A stretch of DNA of 35,632 bases from positions 1 through 35,632 of the forward strand of contig JAQVTF010000015.1 in NCBI GenBank assembly GCA_028700185.1. Reading direction: 5' to 3'. The notes under the pieces are model-generated. The model searched no databases. It saw nothing but the letters and a program-made list of their open reading frames with translations, and was not told the origin of the DNA. Each line of letters opens with the position of its first letter. Position 1 is the first letter of the stretch. Of the stretch, positions 5,551-23,274 are shown one piece after another. The position numbers and the translations under genes are program-made. This DNA comes from Desulfobacteraceae bacterium. GTDB taxonomy: Bacteria; Desulfobacterota; Desulfobacteria; Desulfobacterales; UBA2174.

Positions 5551-5627
<77 letters not shown>

Positions 5628-6709: not shown

Positions 6710-8398
6710 ATGTTGGCGGGGGTCTGGCTCCTGGCGGCGGCCTGCGGCCGGCCGGCTTTCTCCGCCAACGTGACCCGGCCGGAAATGAAGCCGTCCATCG
6801 ACTGCACGGGCAAGTATTTCAACTATATGCTTGCCCAGCAGGAGGAAAGGCGCGGCAATTGGAAACAGGCGGTGGCGTTTCTCCAGAAGGCCATCGTCTG
6901 TGACCCGGATTCCTCATACCTCCGTCGCGAGCTGGCCATGGTGCGCGTGCACCAGAAGGATCTGCCCGGCGCCGTGCAGGTGTTGGAAGATCTGCTCCAC
7001 CGTGACCCGAAAGACGAGGCCGCGTGGATGCTGCTGGCGCGGATCCAGCAGCAGGCCGGAGAACAGGCCGCGGCCCGGTCTTCCCTTGAACGGGCGCTGG
7101 CGCTGGACCCGGAGCGGCGCGATGCCTATCTGTTGCTGGGCCACATGTATCTGGAGGATGAAAACTGGACAGCGGCTCAGGCGATTTTTGAGCAGTTCGT
7201 GGAGCGGTTTCCCGAGGTGTTCGCCGGTCATTTTTTCCTGGCCCGGATCTACGAGACCCAGGGGCGCTTCGCCGACGCCCTGGCCACCTACCAGCGCAGC
7301 ATCGAGCTGGATCCATCCGAGGAAGAGGCCCGTTACGCGTTGATCCGGCTATACCAGCGGATGGAAAAGGGCGACGAGGCGGTCGGCCAGTATCAGAAAC
7401 TGTTGGCCGACAATCCCCACAACGCCCGTGCTGGACTGGCCCTGGCCCTGCATTACCACCGCGAGGGCCTCGGTGAGCAGGCCGCCGATCTCATGGCGCG
7501 CTTCGGTCGGCGCAGCCTCGATGACCCGGAAGTCATCGGCGTCCTGGTCCGTTTCTACCTCGAAGACGACGCTGATCCCCGGGAGGCACAGATCCTGCTC
7601 GACGGGATGCTGGCTGTGGCGCCCGAAAGTTCCGATTTGCATTATCTGTCCGGAATCGTGAATGATCGGCTCGGAAAAGACGACGATGCGATTCACCATT
7701 TCAAGCAGGTCAATCCCCAGTCGCAGTTCTACGAAGATGCCGCGGTCCAGTTGGCCTATCTCTTCCAGAAGAACCAGCGCACGGCCGAGGCGGTGGATTT
7801 CATGACCGAGGCGATTCAACACTACCCTGAAAACACCTATTTCCGTCTTTATCTCGGTGGGTTCTACGAGGAACTGGAGCGGTATGCCGAGGCGGAAAAG
7901 ACCCTGTTGGAGGCCCTGGCCCTGGAGGCCGAGAACGTCCGAATCCTCTTTCGTCTCGGGGTGGTCTACGACAAGTGGGGCCGGCGGCCCGAGTGCATCG
8001 AGCGCATGAAGCAGGTGATTGCCCTGGATCCCCAACACGCCAATGCCCTCAACTACCTGGGCTATACCTACACCGAGATGGGGGTGCAACTCGAGGAGGC
8101 CGAGCAGTTGATCCAGCGGGCCCTGGCCCTCAAGCCCGACGACGGGTATATCACGGACAGTCTTGGATGGGTCTATTTTAAACAGGGTCGTTTTCAGGAA
8201 GCCTTGACGGTGCTTGAACGCGCCAGCCGGCTGGCCCCCGAGGACCCGGTCATTCTCGAGCACGTGGGCGATGCCCATCGCCAGGTGGGGCAGGTCCAGG
8301 AGGCGGTGGAATACTACCGCCGGGCCCTGGAGCGCAAAACCACCCAACGCCAACCACTGATCGACAAGCTGCGGGAGCTGGGAGTCGATGCATCCTGA
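6710..8398 (+). CDS. Tetratricopeptide-repeat protein, probable secreted lipoprotein
   Basis: From ATG 6710 the product has 562 residues: a hydrophobic leader (MLAGVWLLAAAC) with a possible lipobox Cys12, then about a dozen or more TPR units to the C-terminus (for example the unit ending in ALALDPERRDAYLLLGHMY). TPR solenoids bind partner proteins; exported TPR lipoproteins often act in outer-membrane or envelope assembly. The ATG leaves a signal peptide with no basic residues. An in-frame TTG at 6638, preceded by AGGAG at 6623-6627, would add a basic n-region containing KPIRKK and overlap rpoH, so the true start is uncertain. The 3' end overlaps the LolB-like gene by 11 bases, suggesting coupled expression and a joint role in the envelope (inference). 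Confidence 0.82.
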   Translation: MLAGVWLLAAACGRPAFSANVTRPEMKPSIDCTGKYFNYMLAQQEERRGNWKQAVAFLQKAIVCDPDSSYLRRELAMVRVHQKDLPGAVQVLEDLLHRDPKDEAAWMLLARIQQQAGEQAAARSSLERALALDPERRDAYLLLGHMYLEDENWTAAQAIFEQFVERFPEVFAGHFFLARIYETQGRFADALATYQRSIELDPSEEEARYALIRLYQRMEKGDEAVGQYQKLLADNPHNARAGLALALHYHREGLGEQAADLMARFGRRSLDDPEVIGVLVRFYLEDDADPREAQILLDGMLAVAPESSDLHYLSGIVNDRLGKDDDAIHHFKQVNPQSQFYEDAAVQLAYLFQKNQRTAEAVDFMTEAIQHYPENTYFRLYLGGFYEELERYAEAEKTLLEALALEAENVRILFRLGVVYDKWGRRPECIERMKQVIALDPQHANALNYLGYTYTEMGVQLEEAEQLIQRALALKPDDGYITDSLGWVYFKQGRFQEALTVLERASRLAPEDPVILEHVGDAHRQVGQVQEAVEYYRRALERKTTQRQPLIDKLRELGVDAS

Positions 8399-9224
8399 CC
8401 GCACCATGCCCGTCCGTCCACAGGCGGTTGCGTCCCGTTCCCGGCCGGGATCCCGGTCCCTGTGGCCGGCGATGATCACCGGGATCGCCGTGCTGGTCTG
8501 GATGACGGGATGCGCCGTTCGACGGCCCGCGACGCTTCCGCCCCCCATACCGTCAGAGAGCGCCGAAACGGTTCTCGCCCGGGCCCGGGGAATCAATCAA
8601 GGCCTGGAGGCCTTCAAGGGGGTCGGCCGGCTGGAGATCGAGACCCCCGAGTTTCGCCGTGCCGGGCGGGCCGCCTGGGCCGGCCGTCTGGCGGGACCGA
8701 AGTTCCGGCTGGACCTCATGGGGGCCGGGCTGCCCGCGGCCAGCCTCTCCGGGGACGGCCAACGCCTCTACTGGCGCCAATCCGCCGATGGAGACGTGCA
8801 GTCGCAGGCGGCCACCAATCCCCGCCTGGACGATCTGCTGGGGTTGCCGCTGACGGTTTCCGACCTGTTGCATGCCATGGCCGGTCGCCTGCCCGAGATG
8901 CCTTATCAGCGGACCAGTGTTCACCCCGGCGCCTCGGCGGATCGGTGGCACCTGGTGTTCTACGACCACTTCGGCACCCCCCGGATCCAGGCGGCCCTGG
9001 AAGACGAGGGGCGGCAAATCCGCCGATTGGCCCTTTACCGCACCGATGGCAGCCTGGGCTACCGGGTCGATTATCAGGACGAACAAGTGGCCGGTGCCTA
9101 TCGACTCCCCCATCGGATCGAAGTGGGCGACGGGCAAAGCACCTGCCGGATCCAGGTGGACCGCTGGTGGCCCGATGCCGCGTTGAACGATGGGGTTTTC
9201 GTCCTCGCTCCGGCGCGTCCTTAA
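8388..9224 (+). CDS. LolB-like outer-membrane lipoprotein (DUF4292-type)
   Basis: A 278-residue protein with a basic N-terminus, a hydrophobic span and a lipobox-like VWMTGC with Cys42, pointing to a lipoprotein. The mature part resembles the LolB/DUF4292 half-barrel: VGRLEIETPEFRRAGRAAWAGRLAGPKFRLDLMG followed by a predominantly beta C-terminal region ending in NDGVFVLAP is like the closing strand of that fold. LolB accepts lipoproteins from the periplasmic carrier LolA and inserts them in the outer membrane. The assignment is by pattern, not strong identity, so a different lipid-binding half-barrel role is possible. ATG 8388 has GGGAG just upstream; ATG 8406 is an alternative. It overlaps the TPR gene. 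Confidence 0.72.
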   Translation: MHPDRTMPVRPQAVASRSRPGSRSLWPAMITGIAVLVWMTGCAVRRPATLPPPIPSESAETVLARARGINQGLEAFKGVGRLEIETPEFRRAGRAAWAGRLAGPKFRLDLMGAGLPAASLSGDGQRLYWRQSADGDVQSQAATNPRLDDLLGLPLTVSDLLHAMAGRLPEMPYQRTSVHPGASADRWHLVFYDHFGTPRIQAALEDEGRQIRRLALYRTDGSLGYRVDYQDEQVAGAYRLPHRIEVGDGQSTCRIQVDRWWPDAALNDGVFVLAPARP

Positions 9225-9249
9225 CCCTTCAATTTCCCGAAGATCGATC

Positions 9250-10461
9250 ATGGCCCCAACCCTTCTCTCGCCCCTGGAGGCGCGGCTTCGAGACATCCGA
9301 CGCCAACTGGATGATTCGGAACGGCACCGTTTTTCCGCTCTGGCGACCTCCAGTGACCAGGCCCGGCGCCGTTGCCATGAAGCGCGCCTGGATCACGATT
9401 ACCGGCAGGCCTTCGCCGTGGACGTCGATCGCATCCTGCACTCCCGCAGTTACACCCGTTACATCGACAAGACCCAGGTTTTTTACCTCATCCGCAACGA
9501 CCACATCACCCACCGGGTGCTGCACGTGCAGCTCGTCTCCAAGATCGGCCGTACCATCGGCCGTTTTCTCCGGCTCAACGAAGATCTCATCGAGGCCATC
9601 GCTCTCGGTCACGACATCGGCCACGCCCCCTTCGGTCACGACGGGGAACGGATCCTCTCGGAGCTGTGCCTGGCCCATGGGATCGGCCATTTCTTGCACA
9701 ACATCCAGAGCGTCCAGTTCCTCGAACGCGTGGAGCGCAAGGGGCGTGGGTGGAACCTGACCCTTCAGACCCTCGACGGGATCCTGGCCCACGATGGGGA
9801 AGTCCACGATCAGCACCTGACCCCCTGCGGCGCCAAAAGCTTAGATGATCTCGAAACCGAAATGGCCGCCAAGCGCCTTCAGCCGGAGCGGCGAATCACG
9901 CCTATGACCATGGAAGGGTGCGTGGTGCGCATGGCGGACACCATCAGCTACGTCGGACGCGACATCGAGGATGCCATCCGGTTGGGGGTGGTGGCGCGGG
10001 AAGAGATCCCGGAGGAGTGCGCCCGGGTGCTGGGACGCACCAACGGGGCCATCGTTTACAGCCTGGTGACCGATATTCTGGCCAACAGCCACGGCCAACC
10101 CTATCTGAGTTTCAGCGGCGAAGTCTCAGCGGCCTTGAAGCGTCTGAAGGCGTTCAATCTGGAGCGGATCTACCTCAACCAACGGATCAAGTGCCACGGC
10201 CGTCGCATCGCGGAGCTTTTTCACCTGCTCTTCGAGCGTTATCTGTCCGATATCCTTCAGGAGCGTCGTGATTCGGTCATTTTTCGCAGTTTTTTGCACG
10301 ACATGGCACCGGAGTATCTGACCCGGCATCGGCCGGCGGAGATCGTCCGGGACTTCATCGCCGGGATGACCGATCGCTATTTTCTGGCGCAATGCCCGCC
10401 CGAGCTGCGGCCGGAGCCCGTCACCTGGCCGGTGGGGCGCCCCGAAACGGCGGCGGACTGA
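9250..10461 (+). CDS. dGTPase-like HD-domain triphosphohydrolase
   Basis: A 403-residue member of the Dgt/dNTP triphosphohydrolase family, which hydrolyses dNTPs to deoxynucleosides and triphosphate. Metal ligands of the HD domain are visible as His88 (THRVLH), His121-Asp122 in HDIGHAPFGHDGE, and Asp230 in VRMADTISYVGRDIEDA. The N-terminal pattern around SYTRYIDKTQVF is close to the family's RLxxKTQVF. The start MAPTLLSPLEARL at 9250 is preferred over an upstream ATG lying inside the previous gene. The gene begins 25 bases after the LolB-like gene and ends 5 bases before the UPF0280 gene, so it is probably co-transcribed. The nucleotide specificity cannot be told from sequence alone. Confidence 0.9.
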   Translation: MAPTLLSPLEARLRDIRRQLDDSERHRFSALATSSDQARRRCHEARLDHDYRQAFAVDVDRILHSRSYTRYIDKTQVFYLIRNDHITHRVLHVQLVSKIGRTIGRFLRLNEDLIEAIALGHDIGHAPFGHDGERILSELCLAHGIGHFLHNIQSVQFLERVERKGRGWNLTLQTLDGILAHDGEVHDQHLTPCGAKSLDDLETEMAAKRLQPERRITPMTMEGCVVRMADTISYVGRDIEDAIRLGVVAREEIPEECARVLGRTNGAIVYSLVTDILANSHGQPYLSFSGEVSAALKRLKAFNLERIYLNQRIKCHGRRIAELFHLLFERYLSDILQERRDSVIFRSFLHDMAPEYLTRHRPAEIVRDFIAGMTDRYFLAQCPPELRPEPVTWPVGRPETAAD

Positions 10462-16249: not shown

Positions 16250-17041
16250 ATGGCTTACGACAATCTCATCTATGACGTGTCCGACGGCATCGCCACCGTC
16301 ACCTTTAATCGACCCAAGGCTCTCAACGCGCTGAATCGCGAACTGCTCAACGAGTTCACCGCAGCCCTGGAGCAGACGGCCGCCGACCCGGCGGTGCGGG
16401 TTCTGGTGTTGACCGGGGCCGGTGAAAAGGCCTTCGTGGCCGGGGCCGACATCACCGAGATCGCCCGCTGCACCCCGCTTCAGGCCAAGCGCTTCTCCGC
16501 TCTGGGCCAGGCGGCCATCAACCGGCTCCAGGCCCTGGAGATTCCGGTGATCGCGGCCGTCAACGGCTTCGCCCTGGGGGGCGGCACCGAGATGGCCCTG
16601 GCCTGCGATTTCATCTACGCCTCCGAAAAGGCCCGCTTCGGCCTGCCGGAAATCACCCTGGGCATCATCCCCGGTTTCGGGGGCACCCAGCGTCTGCCCC
16701 GGCTCATCGGGGCCAATGCGGCCAAGGAACTTATCTTCACCGGCCGGATGATCAATGCCGAAGAGGCAATGCGTCTGGGCATCGTCAACCGGGTCTGTCC
16801 TCCCGAGGGGCTGATGGAAGCCGTGCTGGAAACCGCCCGGGCCATCGCCGCCAAGGGCCGCGTTTCCCTGCGAGCCGCCAAGCAGGCCATCAACCGGGGA
16901 TTGAACGTGGACCTGGCCAGCGGGTGCAATCTGGAGGTGGACGCCTTCGCCCTCTGCCTGGCCAGCCCGGATGCCAAGGAGGGAACCAGCGCCTTCTTGG
17001 AGAAGCGCCAAGCTGTTTTTTCCGGTGGATACGAGGACTGA
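16250..17041 (+). CDS. Enoyl-CoA hydratase (crotonase family)
   Basis: A 263-residue crotonase-family enzyme; the likely reaction is hydration of crotonyl-CoA to (S)-3-hydroxybutyryl-CoA. The oxyanion-hole segments AGADITE and NGFALGGGTEMA are present, and both catalytic glutamates are conserved (Glu114 and Glu134, in GGGTE and GLPEITLGIIPGFGGTQRLPR), which favours true hydratase activity. The ATG at 16250 follows AAAGGAG by 7 bases. A 65-base gap separates it from the amidase gene. With the dehydrogenase at 35494 and the glutaconyl-CoA decarboxylase it would supply the steps from crotonyl-CoA toward acetyl-CoA (inference from reactions, not from operon linkage). Confidence 0.93.
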   Translation: MAYDNLIYDVSDGIATVTFNRPKALNALNRELLNEFTAALEQTAADPAVRVLVLTGAGEKAFVAGADITEIARCTPLQAKRFSALGQAAINRLQALEIPVIAAVNGFALGGGTEMALACDFIYASEKARFGLPEITLGIIPGFGGTQRLPRLIGANAAKELIFTGRMINAEEAMRLGIVNRVCPPEGLMEAVLETARAIAAKGRVSLRAAKQAINRGLNVDLASGCNLEVDAFALCLASPDAKEGTSAFLEKRQAVFSGGYED

Positions 17042-17056
17042 GGCCGGAAAAAAGAA

Positions 17057-17086
17057 TTGACAAGAATCGCTGATCCCGGTTATGGA
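17057..17086 (+). promoter_or_regulatory. Candidate sigma-70 promoter of the paaK leader
   Basis: A perfect TTGACA at 17057-17062 is followed after 18 bases by TATGGA (17081-17086). A transcript from here would begin near 17093 and run into the structured leader and two terminators ahead of paaK. Confidence 0.4.
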
Positions 17087-17093
17087 GTTTCGG

Positions 17094-17281
17094 AAATTGG
17101 AACCGCGTTCAGCGGAGGGGCCTAACGCGATGTACTGCACCAGCCGATACTTTACCTTTTATGGCTTTTATGGGTACTTCTTTACGAAGTCTACCCATGG
17201 ACCGGCGCGGTAGCAGAAACGACAGCAAGCCGATACAAGCCATGGGTGGACGCCACACGGTGACTCCCATGGCTTTTTTTT
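17094..17281 (+). ncRNA. Candidate structured leader or small RNA upstream of paaK
   Basis: This stretch has no plausible protein frame but dense secondary structure. A hairpin at 17170-17198 pairs ATGGGTA and CTTC with GAAG and TACCCAT. ATGGCTT at 17161-17167 can instead pair with AAGCCAT at 17237-17243, which is the left arm of the terminator at 17237-17281. The two pairings are mutually exclusive, as in an attenuator. AGCCGATAC occurs twice (17142-17150 and 17228-17236). I see no match to a riboswitch core I know. It may be an attenuating leader for paaK or a stand-alone small RNA of about 190 bases. Confidence 0.35.
17237..17281 (+). terminator. Intrinsic terminator 1 upstream of paaK
   Basis: A perfect 10-base stem, AAGCCATGGG (17237-17246) with CCCATGGCTT (17266-17275), 19-base loop, followed by a run of eight T (17274-17281). 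It ends either the enoyl-CoA hydratase transcript or the leader RNA. Confidence 0.85.
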
Positions 17282-17286
17282 GCTTG

Positions 17287-17321
17287 AAAGGGGCTGCGGG
17301 AACCACCGTAGCCCCTTTTTT
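17287..17321 (+). terminator. Intrinsic terminator 2, five bases after terminator 1
   Basis: AAAGGGGCT (17287-17295) pairs with AGCCCCTTT (17310-17318), extended by a G-T pair and CGG/CCG, with a 6-base loop and a T6 tract. It ends only 36 bases before the paaK start, so any transcript entering paaK from upstream must pass both terminators. Confidence 0.85.
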
Positions 17322-17356
17322 GATGTCTTGCCCATACATCTTGCCAGGAGGAACCG

Positions 17357-18658
17357 ATGATCTACGATGTGGAGTACGAAACCATGCCCCGGGAGGCCCT
17401 GGAAGCCATCCAGCTCCGACGCCTCAAAACGACCCTGGAACGGGTCTGCGCCACGGTCCCCTTCTACCGGGAACGGATGGCCACCGCCGGCATCAAACCC
17501 CGGGACATCCAGCGCCTCGATGACATTCGCCACATCCCCTTTACCACCAAGCAGGACCTGCGCGACAACTACCCCTTCGGCATGTTTGCCGTGCCCATGG
17601 ACACGGTGGTGCGCATCCACGCCTCCTCCGGCACCACCGGCCAGCCCACGGTGGTGGGTTACACAGCCCGGGATGTGAATACCTGGGCCACCTTGATGGC
17701 CCGCGCGCTGGTGGCCGGAGGCGCCACCGCCAACGACATCATCCACAACGCCTACGGTTACGGATTGTTCACCGGCGGGCTGGGGGTCCATTACGGGGCC
17801 GAGAAACTCGGCGCTTCGGTGATCCCGGTCTCCGGCGGCAACACCAGGCGACAGATTTTGATCATGCGCGATTTCAAGCCCACCGTCATCACGGCCACCC
17901 CCAGCTACGTCCTGCACCTGGCCGAGGTGGCCGAGGAAATGGGGGTTTCGTTCAAGGATCTGAGCTTCAAGTTCGGCATTTTCGGCGCGGAACCGTGGTC
18001 GGAGAAGATGCGCCAGGAGATCGAGCGCAAGCTCAACATCACTGCCGTGGACATTTACGGTTTGAGCGAAGTGATCGGCCCCGGGGTGGCCATCGAGTGT
18101 CATGAAGCCAAGAAGGGGTTGCATATCTTTGAGGATCATTTCCTGCCCGAGATCATCGATCCGGCCAGCGGCGAGGTGCTGCCGCCGGGGGAGACCGGCG
18201 AGCTGGTCTTCACCTCCCTGACCAAGGAGGCCTTCCCGGTGATTCGCTACCGCACCCGGGACATCACCAGCCTCAACCCCGAACCGTGTGTTTGCGGCCG
18301 GACCCACGTGCGCATGAACCGGGTGAGCGGCCGCAGCGACGACATGCTCATCATCCGCGGGGTCAACGTTTTCCCCTCCCAGATCGAGAGCATTCTGATG
18401 GAAACCAGCGAGGTGGCACCCCATTACCAGTTAGTGGTGGACCGCGAGGAGAACCTCGACACCCTCACCGTGCGCGTGGAGGTGGGGGAGGGGCTTTTTT
18501 CCGACGAGGTGCGCCAGCTCCAGGCCCTCGAACGCCAGATCAGCAAAAACATCAAGGAGACCCTCGGCGTTTCGGCCAAGGTCAAGCTCGTCGAGCCCCA
18601 CACGATCCAGCGCAGCGAGGGCAAGGCGGTGCGCGTCATCGACAACCGCAAGATTTGA
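17357..18658 (+). CDS. paaK: Phenylacetate-CoA ligase (AMP-forming)
   Basis: The 433-residue protein activates phenylacetate or a related aryl acid with ATP and CoA, the entry step of anaerobic aromatic-acid degradation. Typical PaaK features are the N-terminal [17 protein letters not shown], the ATP-binding [15 protein letters not shown] (about residues 89-103), [39 protein letters not shown] and the C-terminal domain [19 protein letters not shown] with the swivelling catalytic lysine region near the end. The start has AGGAGG 5 bases upstream. It is followed by an ACT-domain protein and Liv transporter genes, the standard company of PaaK in anaerobic Proteobacteria and Desulfobacterota. The tandem terminators upstream suggest conditional expression. 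Confidence 0.95.
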
Positions 18659-18676: not shown

Positions 18677-19108
18677 ATGCATGCACAGCAGATTTCGATC
18701 TTTCTGGAGAACAAGGCTGGCCGTCTGGCCGAGGTGACGGGGATCCTGGCCGCGGCCGGCGTGAACATCCGTGCCCTGGCCTTGGCCGACACGTCGGACT
18801 TCGGCGTGTTGCGTCTCATCGTTGACGACAACCAAAAGGCCGAAAATGCCCTGAAACAGGGAGGCCTCACCGTGAGCAAGACCGACGTGGTGGCCGTGGC
18901 GGTGGACGACCGGCCCGGCGGTCTGCACCACATCCTCGAGTTGCTCCAGAACGCCGGTATCAACGTGGAGTATATGTACGCCTTTGTTCAGCACAGTGGT
19001 GCCAACGCGGTGATGATCTTCCGCTTCGACCAGCCCGACGATGCCCTCAAGGTGTTGACCGCCGACGGGCTGAAGGTGATCGAAGGCCGGCGATTGTACA
19101 CGATGTAA
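18677..19108 (+). CDS. Tandem ACT-domain protein linked to PaaK
   Basis: A 143-residue protein with two ACT domains (about residues 3-68 and 71-140): QISIFLENKAGRLAEVTGILAAAGVNIRALALAD and VAVDDRPGGLHHILELLQNAGINVEYMYAF. ACT domains bind small ligands, usually amino acids, at domain interfaces. Genes of this type lie beside paaK across many anaerobes and probably sense an aromatic acid or amino acid and control the ligase or transporter; the mechanism is not established. Shine-Dalgarno AAAGGAG is present. It starts 18 bases after paaK. Confidence 0.92.
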   Translation: MHAQQISIFLENKAGRLAEVTGILAAAGVNIRALALADTSDFGVLRLIVDDNQKAENALKQGGLTVSKTDVVAVAVDDRPGGLHHILELLQNAGINVEYMYAFVQHSGANAVMIFRFDQPDDALKVLTADGLKVIEGRRLYTM

Positions 19109-19159: not shown

Positions 19160-20320
19160 ATGAAGCGCAAACCGTGCCTGAAGTGGAACCCCCGTGGGAT
19201 GTGGACGGTGGTCTTGCTCGCCGTCTTGATCGCCGCGCCGGCCCTGGCGGCGGATGTTTACAGGATCGGCGGGCTTTTTTCCGTCACCGGCCCCGCCTCT
19301 TTTCTCGGCGACCCGGAAAAGCGTAGTCTGGAGATGGCGGTGGCGGAGATCAACGCCGACGGCGGCATCGACGGCAAAATGCTCGAAGCGGTGATCTACG
19401 ATACCGAGGGTGATCCCCAGAAAGCCGTATCGGGAATCAACAAGCTGATCAACAAGGACAAGGTGCTGGCCATCATCGGCCCCAGCACCACCCCGGCAAC
19501 CCTGGCGGTCAAAAATTTCGCCGAGCGGGCCAGGATTCCGCTGATCAGTTGCGCCGCTGGTATCGCCATCACCGAGCCGGTGACGCCCTGGACTTTCAAG
19601 ACGGCCCAGAACGACGCGTTGGCCGTGGCGTCGGTCTATGCCCACATGAAAAACCGGGGCGTGGAAAAAATTGGTTTGCTCACCGTGGCCGATGCCTTCG
19701 GTGAGAGCGGCAAGCAGCAGCTTGAACAACAGGTCGGAAACTACGGCCTGCGGATCGTGGCGGTGGAGAGTTTCGGCGGCAAGGACACCGACATGACGGC
19801 GCAATTGACCAAGATCCGGGCGGCGGGTCCGGACGCCATCGTCTGCTGGGGCACCAACCCCGGGCCGGCGGTGGTGGCCAAGAACATCCGCCAGTTGCAA
19901 ATTGACGTGCCGCTCTACCAGAGCCACGGGGTGGCATCGCCCAAGTTCATCGAGCTGGCCGGGGAGGCGGCCGAGGGCATTTGCCTGCCCACCGGCAAGA
20001 TCCTGGTGGCGGGGCTGCTGCCGGTGGACGATCCCCAAAAGGAGATGCTCAACGACTATATCCTGCGCTACACCGAGACCCAGAAGATGCCTGTCTCCGG
20101 CTTTGGCGGGTATGCCTGGGATGCGATGCATCTGTTGGCCGAGGCGATGCAAGGCGCCGGGGGCGACCGAAACAAGATTCGGGACAACCTGGAAAAAATC
20201 GACCACTTTCCGGCGGTGAGCGGCGTCTTTCGCTTCTCCCCCGACGACCACAACGGACTGGGCCCCGAGGCCTTCGTCATGGTGCGCATCGAGGGGGGCA
20301 TCTGGAGCCTGGAGCGTTGA
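19160..20320 (+). CDS. livK: Periplasmic substrate-binding protein of a branched-chain amino acid-type (Liv) ABC transporter
   Basis: A 386-residue type I periplasmic binding protein. The signal peptide (residues about 1-31, cleavage near ALA-AD) is followed by IGGLFSVTGPASFLGDPEKRSLEMAVAEINADGGIDG, the usual start of the Leu/Ile/Val-binding family, and AIIGPSTTPATLAV. Members beside PaaK are thought to bind aromatic acids or amino acids, not necessarily branched-chain amino acids. Shine-Dalgarno AAAGGAG. It precedes livH with a 126-base gap. Confidence 0.92.
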   Translation: MKRKPCLKWNPRGMWTVVLLAVLIAAPALAADVYRIGGLFSVTGPASFLGDPEKRSLEMAVAEINADGGIDGKMLEAVIYDTEGDPQKAVSGINKLINKDKVLAIIGPSTTPATLAVKNFAERARIPLISCAAGIAITEPVTPWTFKTAQNDALAVASVYAHMKNRGVEKIGLLTVADAFGESGKQQLEQQVGNYGLRIVAVESFGGKDTDMTAQLTKIRAAGPDAIVCWGTNPGPAVVAKNIRQLQIDVPLYQSHGVASPKFIELAGEAAEGICLPTGKILVAGLLPVDDPQKEMLNDYILRYTETQKMPVSGFGGYAWDAMHLLAEAMQGAGGDRNKIRDNLEKIDHFPAVSGVFRFSPDDHNGLGPEAFVMVRIEGGIWSLER

Positions 20321-20446: not shown

Positions 20447-21322
20447 ATGCAAGAGATCTTGCAATACCTTTTCTCCGGCATCACCAGCGGGGCCATCTAT
20501 GCGGTGATCGCCCTGGGATTCTCGATGCTCTACAACAGCACGGATCTCATCAACTTTGCCCACGGCGAGTTTGTCATGCTCGGGGGGTTAACGCTGGTGA
20601 CCCTCTGGGCCGGCCTGGGGTTGCCGCTGGTGGTGGCGTTGCTGTTGAGTGTGGTCGCCGTGGCGGTGGTGGGCGCCGCGTTCCAGCGCCTGGCCATCGC
20701 CACGGTGAAAAATCCCCATCCCATCGTGTTGGTGATCATCACCGTGGGGACTTCGATTTTGCTGCGGGGGGTGGCCATGGTCGTCTGGGGCAAGGATTCC
20801 CACAGCGTACCGTTTTTCAGTAACCATGCCCCCATCGATATCGCCGGCGCCAAGTTGCTGCCCCAGAGCCTGTGGATTTTCGCCATTGCGGCGGTGATCA
20901 TCGTGGCCTTGCAGTTTTTCTTCAAGGCCACCTTGACCGGCAAGGCCATGGAAGCCTGCGCGGTGAGCCGGCGCGCCGCTTGGCTCACCGGGATTCCCAC
21001 CGGGCGGATGAACCTACTGGCCTTCATCATCAGCACCGGCAGCGGCGCGGTGGCCGGGGCCATCATTGCGCCCATCACCATGTGCAGCTACGACATGGGC
21101 ACCATGCTGGGACTCAAGGGGTTCTGCGCCGCCATGCTCGGCGGCCTGGGAAGCCTCTGGGGGGCTCTGGCGGGCGGTTTTCTCCTCGGCATCCTTGAAG
21201 CCGCCGGGGTGGGGCTGTTTTCCTCCGGCTACAAGGATGCCATCGCCTTCGTGTTGTTACTGCTCATCCTCTACGTGAAACCCTCCGGGTTGCTGGGCAG
21301 CGCCAAGGTGCAGCGGTTCTGA
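20447..21322 (+). CDS. livH: Liv-type ABC transporter permease LivH
   Basis: A 291-residue inner-membrane permease with about eight hydrophobic spans. Family signatures are SGAIYAVIALGFSMLYNSTDLINFAHGEFVMLGG at the N-terminus and LLGLKGFCAAMLGGLGSLWGALAGGFLLG near the C-terminus (the EAA-like loop that contacts the ATPase). It would normally pair with LivM and the ATPases LivG and LivF. None follows: the next gene is a CoA-transferase. The Shine-Dalgarno is weak. Confidence 0.92.
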   Translation: MQEILQYLFSGITSGAIYAVIALGFSMLYNSTDLINFAHGEFVMLGGLTLVTLWAGLGLPLVVALLLSVVAVAVVGAAFQRLAIATVKNPHPIVLVIITVGTSILLRGVAMVVWGKDSHSVPFFSNHAPIDIAGAKLLPQSLWIFAIAAVIIVALQFFFKATLTGKAMEACAVSRRAAWLTGIPTGRMNLLAFIISTGSGAVAGAIIAPITMCSYDMGTMLGLKGFCAAMLGGLGSLWGALAGGFLLGILEAAGVGLFSSGYKDAIAFVLLLLILYVKPSGLLGSAKVQRF

Positions 21323-21527
21323 TTGCTGCTGGAGACCGACCCGTGCCCATCAGGGGCACGCAGGTTGCGGGTAAACAGCTTGCGGCCCCTTTGGCAGGAT
21401 GTTATTTCAATAAAAAATTTTCATGCGCCTGAAACGGTCTCTACTCCGGCGGGCGCTTCTCCGGTGCCCGCCGGGGGAGGCGGTGGCTCCGGTCCGGCGC
21501 CGCCCTTCAACGGACAAAGGATTCTTC
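21323..21527 (+). other. livH-gctA intergenic region with hairpins
   Basis: No gene is seen here. There is a small hairpin (GTGCCC/GGGCAC near 21341-21360), a weak promoter-like pair (TTGCGG and TATTTC, 17-base spacer, about 21378-21406), an AT-rich patch, and a strong hairpin with a 9-base stem at 21446-21474 (CCGGCGGGC and its complement). The hairpin has no T-run, so it is not a standard terminator. No remnant of livM, livG or livF could be recognised. Confidence 0.35.
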
Positions 21528-22481
21528 ATGAAGCTGATGACTGCCGCCGAGGCTGTTCGCACTTTGATCAAGGATGGGGATCAGATTGCCCTGGGAGGGT
21601 TTACGGTCAATCGAAATCCGATGCTGATGGCCCGGGAGATGATTCGGCAGGGCAAACGCCACCTCTATTTGGTGGTTCACTCTCACGGTCAGGCGCTGGA
21701 GCTGCTCGTGGGGGCCGGATGTGTTCAACGGGTCGAGATCGCCTACGGCGGGGTCGGTCGCTTCGCCCCCACCGGGTTTCGTTTCAAGAAGGCCTTTCTG
21801 GAAAAAAAGATCGAGGTCGAGGACTACTCCAACCTCCAGATGACGCTGCGGTTCATGGCCGGCGCCATGGGAATGCCCTTCGTGGTGACCCGATCCGGAC
21901 TGGGCACCGATATCGTTCGGCTTTCCGGCTTTTCCCCCGAAAGCCGCGGCCAGGGCCGGGTCCCGCGGCAGAAGCTCACCCTTCTGAAGGATCCCTTCGA
22001 TCCCGACGGGGCCGACGTCGTGGCGTTGCCGCCGTTGAATCCCGATGTGGCGCTGGTTCACGCCCAGTATGTGGGGGAGGCGGGAACCTGTCGTTTCTGC
22101 GGGTTGACGTTTGCCGACATCGAGCAAGCCAAGGCCGCCAAGACGGTGATCGTGACCTGCGAGGAGATCGTCCCCGAAGCGTATTTGCGGCGGGAGCCGG
22201 ACCGCAACAGCCTGCCGCCTTTTCTCGTCGATGCGGTGGTCGCCGCCCCCTTCGGGGCTCATCCCACCGCCTGCCACCAGTTCTACGATTACGATCCGAA
22301 GCACATGAATCTCTTCAAACAGATCGCCCGGGACGATGATCGGTTCAAGGCCTACCTCGACGAATGGGTCTATCCCTTCGATAGCCAGGAGGCCTATCTG
22401 GAGCGGGTTGGCGTGAGGGATCTGCTGGAAATCCGGGCCAATCCCGGCTGGGGTTATGCCCCCGGCCTCGACAGGCGTTAG
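21528..22481 (+). CDS. gctA: Glutaconate CoA-transferase, subunit A
   Basis: The 317-residue protein matches the A subunit of family I glutaconate CoA-transferase, which moves CoA from acetyl-CoA or another donor to a C5 dicarboxylate. It shares with Acidaminococcus GctA (as I recall that sequence) the segments GDQIALGGFTVNRNP, EDYSN, VALPPLNPDVALVHAQ, AAKTVIVTCEEIVPE and FLVDAVVAAPFGAHPTACHQFYDYD. The start MKLMTAAEAVRTLIKDG at 21528 was picked by homology over an upstream ATG at 21423. GctB follows 10 bases later. The catalytic Glu is on subunit B. The substrate could also be another dicarboxylate or aryl-succinate-like acid. Confidence 0.88.
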   Translation: MKLMTAAEAVRTLIKDGDQIALGGFTVNRNPMLMAREMIRQGKRHLYLVVHSHGQALELLVGAGCVQRVEIAYGGVGRFAPTGFRFKKAFLEKKIEVEDYSNLQMTLRFMAGAMGMPFVVTRSGLGTDIVRLSGFSPESRGQGRVPRQKLTLLKDPFDPDGADVVALPPLNPDVALVHAQYVGEAGTCRFCGLTFADIEQAKAAKTVIVTCEEIVPEAYLRREPDRNSLPPFLVDAVVAAPFGAHPTACHQFYDYDPKHMNLFKQIARDDDRFKAYLDEWVYPFDSQEAYLERVGVRDLLEIRANPGWGYAPGLDRR

Positions 22482-22491
22482 GGATCAGAAG

Positions 22492-23274
22492 ATGGGAATC
22501 TATACCGCAACGGAAATCATGGCGCTCAGTGCGGGCCGGTTGGTGCACAACGGGGACATCCTTTTCGCCGGAACCGGCTTGAGCATGCTGGCGGCGACGG
22601 TGGCCAAACGGATTCATGCCCCGGAATCGGTTGTTTTCTTTGAAACGGGGGGCATCGACCCCCGTCTGGAGGAGCTGCCCCTGACCGTGGCGGACCCCCG
22701 GGTCATGGTGGGCAGCGCCGTCAACTCCGGCCTGGCCGATGCCTTGAGCCTGCTGGGGCATCCCAAACTGAAAACCATCGCCTTTCTTGGAGCGGCTCAG
22801 ATCGACTGCTACGGCAATCTGAACTCGACCCTGCTGGGGACCTATGAACACCCGGAGCAACGGTTTCCTGGATCCGGCGGGGCCTGTGACGCGGCCAGCA
22901 TGGCCTACGGCGTGATTATCTTCATGCAGCACCAGCGTCGGCGGTTCGTGGAAAAGCTCGACTACTTCACCAGCCCCGGATGGCTGGAAGGGGGAGACGC
23001 CCGGCGTCGGGCGGGCTTTCTCCGGGGAGGGCCCATCGCCGTGGTGACCAATTTGGGCGTGATGAAGTTTCATGAACAGACGAAAAGGATGTACCTGGAG
23101 ACTTACTATCCCTTCACCGATCCGGAGAAGATCGTTGCCGAGACCGGTTTTCCCCTCGATGTGTCCTTTGCCACGGTGGCCATCCCCCCCAGTGATGAGG
23201 AGCTGGCGGTGTTGCGCCAGACAGTGGATCCCCAACGGTTGATTCTGGGGCCCCCGGCCGTCGACCCCGCCTGA
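22492..23274 (+). CDS. gctB: Glutaconate CoA-transferase, subunit B
   Basis: The 260-residue B subunit carries the catalytic glutamate that forms the enzyme-CoA thioester: Glu51 in VFFETGGIDP, aligned with Glu54 of Acidaminococcus GctB. Other family segments are GTGLSMLAATVAKR, FLGAAQIDCYGNLNST, FPGSGGA, MQHQRRRFVEKLDYFTSPGW and KTKRMYLETYYP. The catalytic residue being present separates it from the Glu-less IpdB-type ring-opening hydrolases of the same fold. The start at 22492 has only a poor Shine-Dalgarno (tail of GATCAGAAG) and may be coupled to gctA. No intrinsic terminator is visible after it. Confidence 0.88.
   Translation: MGIYTATEIMALSAGRLVHNGDILFAGTGLSMLAATVAKRIHAPESVVFFETGGIDPRLEELPLTVADPRVMVGSAVNSGLADALSLLGHPKLKTIAFLGAAQIDCYGNLNSTLLGTYEHPEQRFPGSGGACDAASMAYGVIIFMQHQRRRFVEKLDYFTSPGWLEGGDARRRAGFLRGGPIAVVTNLGVMKFHEQTKRMYLETYYPFTDPEKIVAETGFPLDVSFATVAIPPSDEELAVLRQTVDPQRLILGPPAVDPA

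Follow-up and report, generated by a model that had tools for sequence, protein, structure and literature searches.

A putative Phe- and Tyr-responsive attenuator with two tandem terminators precedes a paaK-like gene in Desulfobacterota

How can a gene be transcribed when two strong terminators stand in front of it? The question arises in a stretch of 35,632 nucleotides from a Desulfobacteraceae bacterium (the window hereafter), where an enoyl-CoA hydratase gene ending at 17041 and a PaaK-like gene at 17357-18658 are separated by an interval containing a TTGACA box, a 27-codon ORF with its stop codon, a hairpin and two intrinsic terminators. The leader parts referred to below are the following:

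17057-17085, + strand: promoter read from the sequence, with a -35 box TTGACA at 17057-17062 and a poor -10 box TTATGG at 17080-17085
17130-17213, + strand: leader peptide ORF MYCTSRYFTFYGFYGYFFTKSTHGPAR, from ATG to TAG, 27 residues, stop codon at 17211-17213
17170-17198, + strand: hairpin 1:2 found by folding, in which region 1 (17170-17180) pairs with region 2
17189-17200, + strand: region 2, GTCTACCCATGG, the 5' half of the antiterminator, from alignment and covariation
17240-17251, + strand: region 3, CCATGGGTGGAC, the 3' half of the antiterminator and also the left arm of terminator 1, from alignment and covariation
17238-17281, + strand: terminator 1, with a stem at 17238-17275 (regions 3:4, region 4 being 17266-17273) and a U-run to 17281; -23.2 kcal/mol
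17286-17321, + strand: terminator 2, with a stem at about 17286-17319 (region 5, 17287-17300, against region 6, 17307-17320) and a U-run to 17321; -26.4 kcal/mol

The two strong tandem terminators, already pointed out in a preliminary description of this DNA, are real: both are evident in the sequence, are seen by folding and occur in 15 of 15 aligned sequences, even though a simple consensus terminator scan of the window called neither of them. The U-run of terminator 2 ends 35 bases before the paaK ATG. Folding also reproduced the hairpin at 17170-17198 that the same description had proposed, and the 246 nt from position 17085 reached -104.1 kcal/mol (z -6.47), a value that none of 200 shuffled sequences equalled. 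The suggested upstream TTGACA promoter is likewise supported as regards its -35 box, since 107 of 116 related loci (see below) have a TTGAC motif in the 140 nt that precede the leader start, against 14.8 expected from shuffles. A weak promoter-like site at 17341-17368 overlaps the ribosome-binding site and start of paaK and was given no weight. A further element singled out previously, the repeat AGCCGATAC, is indeed present twice (17142-17150 and 17228-17236, against 0.16 copies expected; none of 100 shuffles had two), but it is not kept in two congeners, and we therefore considered it incidental and dropped it.

Regions 2 and 3 are complementary in the window and can form a 12-bp antiterminator that is mutually exclusive with terminator 1 (3:4). 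A first alignment comprised 15 sequences, the window and 14 homologues retrieved by blastn, in which region 2 reads GTCTnCCCATGG and region 3 CCATGGGnnGAC, with variants. RNAalifold, run on the MAFFT alignment, chose helix 2:3 unprompted, with 12 pairs and all 180 of 180 cells paired; one pair exchanges among A-U, U-A, G-U and U-G, and another changes from G-C to U-A. When extended to 90 loci in an alignment fitted to the structure, 97.5% of cells were paired and 6 of the 12 pairs showed two-sided changes, and in this structure-fitted alignment the covariation score was 0.264, compared with 0.170 after shuffling (0/500 reached it) and at most 0.070 in slid registers. Covariation among homologues, the absence of which had been named as an argument against a structured leader, is thus strong for helix 2:3. 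The conserved partner of the left arm of terminator 1 is 17189-17200, and not the ATGGCTT at 17161-17167 to which its sequestration had earlier been ascribed.

To follow the leader through other genomes, a covariance model was built from the 15 sequences using helix 2:3 only, without regard to the genes nearby. Within the order it produced 97 matches at E <=0.01 in 91 of 389 genomes, and in a draw across the phylum, which overlaps the order draw, 36 of 395 genomes were matched. We read 90 of the 97 order loci (G314, G198, G142, G373, G008, G215 and G231 were left out) and fetched 30 of the 36 phylum matches, four of which (L042, L138, L142 and L155) were already covered, so that 26 further loci were added and 116 were read in all. 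A pattern scan for regions 2 and 3 in one genome per species (84,980 species) yielded 45 stretches, among which 39 had an aromatic-rich leader with paaK or livK downstream and one (L194) had a leader at a contig end. No leader was found in the remaining five (L179, L186, L192, L208 and L211); L179, L208 and L211 carry labels outside the group (Anaerotalea, a Hyphomicrobiales MAG and Dehalococcoidia), and for L192 the script, which keeps one match per locus, seems to have picked the wrong match, the L108 leader being apparently on the same contig. The 40 leader-bearing records are labelled Desulfobacteraceae, Desulfobacterales, Desulfobacteria, Desulfobacterium, Deltaproteobacteria, Syntrophobacteraceae, Desulfacinum or Desulfosarcina, all of which we take to belong to Desulfobacterota. 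Desulfacinum infernum DSM 9756 carries its leader in L174. Searching by blastn with the leader DNA returned close relatives and many chance matches. Three of the loci collected, L005-L007, were dropped as leader homologues, being unrelated terminator-like sequence; in L006 and L007 (a congener, at about 1501-1534) terminators resembling terminator 2 of the window follow a tRNA-end-like sequence.

The preliminary description had missed the ORF at 17130-17213, which proved to be a key part of the leader. The same gene neighbourhood, with an enoyl-CoA hydratase gene on one side and paaK on the other, surrounds the first distant homologue, which comes from a different family of the order and has the leader MNRYFHYFGFFGFFGGFLFRRSAHGPAR*. 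In the 57 nt before region 2 of the 116 loci, one frame contained on average 7.59 aromatic codons (F, Y, W) per 19, as against 4.91 and 4.25 in the other two, and only 18 stops in total as against 135 and 64. Because the covariance model favours T-rich sequence at this place, the comparison between frames is the fair test; the leader frame was the richest in aromatic codons in 93 of 116 loci. An ORF with at least four Phe, Tyr or Trp codons was found in 114 of 116 loci, a count flattered by the choice of the best ORF per locus, the exceptions being L107 and L125. The distance from the start of region 2 to the end of the ORF is 25 nt in 64 of the 116 loci and 22 nt in 9, a placement of the stop codon that fits a ribosome covering region 2 once translation is finished. 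Phe/Tyr-poor leaders that keep regions 2 and 3 occur in L099, L107, L125 and L214 (Desulfosarcina alkanivorans PL12), where the sensor has perhaps decayed or changed. L017/L074 (G102) has no linker between its regions 2 and 3, and the Phe-rich frame continues there without the usual stop.

These features bear on whether the interval could be a small-molecule riboswitch or a stand-alone small RNA, as had been suggested before. The strong structure and the two strong terminators would suit either, but the aromatic codons are frame-specific, and the alignments of the 15 homologues revealed no conserved ligand-binding core beyond the coding frame and the pairing segments, which make up all the conserved parts. 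The earlier statement that no known riboswitch core is recognisable agrees with our Rfam searches: at both gathering and permissive thresholds the window gave only a tRNA and chance matches, leaving the leader unmatched, and a scan of 17 related loci matched no family. We consequently regard both alternatives as very improbable and the two suggestions as unsupported. A T-box, considered on account of a GGGTGGAC motif, was also dropped, as Rfam left it unmatched and the leader ORF explains the conservation.

The other earlier suggestion, an attenuator, was right, given the Phe/Tyr-rich ORF, the chain of complementary segments and the copies before paaK and aromatic-biosynthesis genes. From sequence and folding models, we put at about 0.9 the probability that transcription is attenuated here by a ribosome-mediated mechanism with charged tRNA-Phe and tRNA-Tyr as the sensed signals; it would respond to starvation for Phe and Tyr. 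In the mechanism that we propose, the RNA would start after the promoter near 17057-17085 and a ribosome would translate the 27-residue leader; with no ribosome on the hairpin, 1:2 would form. When Phe- and Tyr-tRNA are plentiful, the ribosome would reach the stop codon at 17211-17213 and cover region 2, so that 3:4 (terminator 1) and 5:6 (terminator 2) would form and transcription would stop. When they are short, the ribosome would stall over region 1, region 2 would pair with region 3 and region 4 would be left free; region 4 and its U-run could then pair with the emerging region 5, neither terminator would form in time and paaK-ACT-liv would be transcribed.

The part of this scheme that concerns the second terminator was looked at separately. 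Of the 116 loci, 109 had a recognisable terminator 1 and 101 a terminator 2 better than -8 kcal/mol; the tail rule of the script misses some terminators (e.g., in L039 and L101), while other loci, such as L119, have no terminator 2. The analyses of the 4:5 duplex, of its core and of folding states are restricted to 101 of the 116 loci, those for which the script returned both terminators. In these loci, region 4 and the U-run behind it show complementarity to region 5, the mean duplex energy being -17.3 kcal/mol. Shuffling region 5 weakened this value to -8.6 kcal/mol, the own duplex being lower in 99%, and swapping region 5 among loci gave -15.0 kcal/mol, with none of 5000 permutations reaching the observed mean (relatedness not corrected). 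An 11-bp core of the 4:5 duplex had 88.5% of its cells paired, against 33-56% in slid registers. Row permutation of this core was not significant (1093 of 5000 reached the observed pairing), because both sides are so conserved.

Folding of the successive states agreed with a scheme of six segments in which 1:2, 3:4 and 5:6 alternate with 2:3 and 4:5, the latter only before region 6 exists. With nothing hidden, 1:2 formed in 80 and 3:4 in 84 of the 101 loci. With region 1 hidden and the polymerase just past region 5, 2:3 and 4:5 each formed in 92 of 101 loci, including the window, and with region 2 hidden, 3:4 and 5:6 each formed in 98. At equilibrium once region 6 has been made, 5:6 formed in 88 of the 101 loci and 4:5 in 11, the window not among these 11, and therefore passing terminator 2 must rest on timing. 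That a single stalled ribosome kinetically defeats terminator 2 as well, in the manner of falling dominoes, is what these models lead us to consider probable, and it would explain tandem terminators that otherwise resemble a dead end.

A simpler arrangement would be a conventional four-region attenuator acting at terminator 1. Terminator 2 would then be a back-up, either unconditional or leaky, by which basal output is reduced, and the complementarity of regions 4 and 5 would be a remnant of terminator duplication. The predominance of 5:6 at equilibrium and the core devoid of significant row covariation are compatible with it, as are the leaders with a single terminator (e.g., L119, L153, L154 and L156); moreover, region 5 resembles region 3, so that the 4:5 complementarity could stem from duplication of the terminator. 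We nevertheless consider this arrangement unlikely: region 5 pairs better with its own region 4 than with those of other loci, in the permutations described above, and the three G at the end of the region 5 core are less variable than their partners in region 6 (a comparison that favours region 5, on which the core was aligned). In addition, a second terminator that was both strong and unconditional would leave the switch without effect, for which reason terminator 2 is expected to be conditional, and the 4:5 pairing recurs in leaders of other sequence located before DAHP synthase genes.

Those leaders came from the window's own genome (G000), which has three DAHP synthase genes with leaders MNPLRSPHRCFFDGRFFFGFRSVHPDV, MSTMQKFFQGGFSGYRGYYFYAYRTGPPRVR and MQMNVTATIDRIWQWRWCIGPRG, whose ORFs are Phe-rich, Tyr/Phe-rich and Trp-rich (L226 (C109), L227 (C148) and L228 (C43)); one of the DAHP synthase open frames also holds a prephenate dehydratase. 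Counterparts of all three leaders were found in 2 of 2 congeners, giving nine leaders. The paaK covariance model scores them only marginally (best 16.6 bits, E 0.16), and hence they differ in sequence. Two successive hairpins were present in 9 of 9, and in 9 of 9 the 4:5 duplex was stronger than with a shuffled region 5, clearly in the Phe set (-20.2 to -25.2 versus -10.0 to -11.1) and narrowly in one Trp leader (-22.5 versus -20.5). Most Phe and Trp leaders have good U-runs, whereas those of the Tyr leaders are poor. For the window's genus, leader composition would thus predict which DAHP synthase answers to which amino acid. A short Trp-containing ORF, MISRYWWWRGRF, before the gene for the alpha subunit of indolepyruvate oxidoreductase (IOR) of the same genome (L230, G000:C142) was not counted as support, because the relatives differ and no U-run was seen after the hairpin; the ORFs before IOR in the congeners are MTSLYWRRWRVPEASHSLR in one and, by our own alignment reading, MMVRCWRWRGVL in the other, both with Trp codons.

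A close parallel in design is the phe leader of enterobacteria, the pheL-pheA attenuator, in which a Phe-rich leader ORF is combined with hairpin 1:2, a 2:3 antiterminator and a 3:4 terminator. All these elements recur in the paaK leader, which differs in having no sequence or Rfam match, in controlling paaK-ACT-liv, and in adding Tyr codons and a second terminator. Six chained segments with alternating pairings are known from the his operon leader as it is presented in part of PMC10989985 (AB, CD and EF versus BC and DE), but there only EF is called the attenuator, whereas in the paaK leader 3:4 and 5:6 are both terminator-like, each with a U-run in the window, and aromatic codons take the place of His codons. 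The Salmonella mgtCBR leader, according to PMC3641672, also houses two attenuation elements, with two ORFs and two signals; in the paaK leader one ORF would govern both terminators. Among the titles and opening lines of abstracts in the open-access literature, we recognised no leader-peptide attenuator before paaK or in Desulfobacterota (subscription papers lay outside this search, and absence from print is not claimed), and the main text of a survey of premature terminators (PMC2965389) contains no occurrence of Desulfo, Geobacter or paaK. Attenuators of this kind are known; what appears to be new is the family itself, together with its distribution across the phylum, the pair of terminators and the association with paaK. 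Such a family of regulatory RNAs, absent from Rfam, would be widespread in a major anaerobic phylum.

What the attenuator controls can be read from the genes that follow it in the window:

17357-18658, + strand: paaK-like phenylacetate-CoA ligase gene, the first controlled gene (TIGR02155, 633.4 bits, slightly under the cut-off of 646.3)
18677-19108, + strand: ACT-domain-pair protein, probably of the same operon (PF19571, E 4.8e-30)
19160-20320, + strand: Liv-type ABC transporter substrate-binding protein, probably of the same operon (PF13458, E 1.1e-58)
20447-21322, + strand: Liv-type ABC transporter permease, probably of the same operon (PF02653, E 6.7e-35)

Across the 116 loci, the first gene downstream was paaK in 85 (74 of 90 order and 11 of 26 phylum loci), a DAHP synthase gene in 16, a gene for a Liv-type binding protein in 11 and one for an ADH synthase, an archaeal-type first step, in 3, with one contig end; these genes were named by tblastn or ORF reading. 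An NCBIfam scan of ten non-paaK downstream proteins, the rest having been named by similarity of reading, assigned L119, L126, L149, L152, L153 (below curated cut-offs), L154 and L156 to DAHP synthases, L116 to ADH synthases, and L098 and, weakly, L159 to Liv-type binding proteins, the last two far below the cut-off of the subfamily model. In G341, paaK-ACT is separated from the Liv-type transporter cluster and each of them is preceded by its own copy of the leader.

A role in aromatic amino acid supply is clear for the genes behind the DAHP and ADH synthase leaders, and for paaK-ACT-liv it may be surmised. An on-switch operated by shortage of Phe and Tyr makes it more likely that PaaK supplies these amino acids, and we are inclined to think, with somewhat better than even confidence, that PaaK is anabolic here and helps to make aromatic amino acids from aryl acids. 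A second aromatic amino acid route, fed by aryl acids and linked to indolepyruvate oxidoreductase, is described for Methanococcus maripaludis (work cited in PMC4162585). As regards that likeness, IOR alpha was matched in 20 of 20 relatives searched here, including the window's genome, with 17 exceeding the cut-off; the difference is that in our case PaaK and leader-peptide control would be part of the route, and that the window's genome also encodes a prephenate dehydratase, so that synthesis from aryl acids would complement another route and not stand alone.

The attenuator could also be real and PaaK catabolic, engaged in breakdown of phenylacetate or Phe, with translation or growth state doing no more than adjusting its expression. 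In denitrifiers, anaerobic degradation of phenylacetate begins with PaaK-type ligases (PadJ), as stated in PMC5109826, and the paaK gene of the window sits between an enoyl-CoA hydratase gene and a Liv-type importer, which would agree with such a role. Leader-peptide attenuators, however, turn genes on at amino acid shortage, which is the wrong sense for breakdown, and the same covariance model also matches leaders of DAHP and ADH synthases. In Desulfococcus multivorans, furthermore, the ligase named as formed on phenylacetate is FadD4, two PadJ (PaaK-type) genes being only noted in the genome in the sections concerned of PMC5109826; this fits an anabolic PaaK without proving it. A catabolic PaaK thus seems to us possible, if doubtful. 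As for anabolic function, the leader would offer a direct handle on what a PaaK usually read as degradative really does. A single reading might even embrace all these observations, and we advance it tentatively, at slightly less than even odds: the two-terminator attenuator would control the aromatic supply of Desulfobacterota, leader codons would sort the DAHP isoenzymes (Phe, Tyr/Phe and Trp), and paaK-ACT-liv would belong to the regulon, PaaK and indolepyruvate oxidoreductase running synthetically to make Phe and Tyr from imported aryl acids.

Some further features of the loci were noted. The Liv permease gene of the window is followed by two CoA-transferase genes (21423-23274), a place taken in other genomes by additional transporter genes. 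In L129 the Liv-type transporter genes are followed by a 427-aa ORF (8330-9613) that starts like another ligase gene of the PaaK type. In L078/L127 (3459-4759) paaK is seemingly split into two overlapping frames, by a frameshift or an assembly error. Lastly, the minus strand of the window carries a tRNA-Arg gene (anticodon tct) at 5551-5627.
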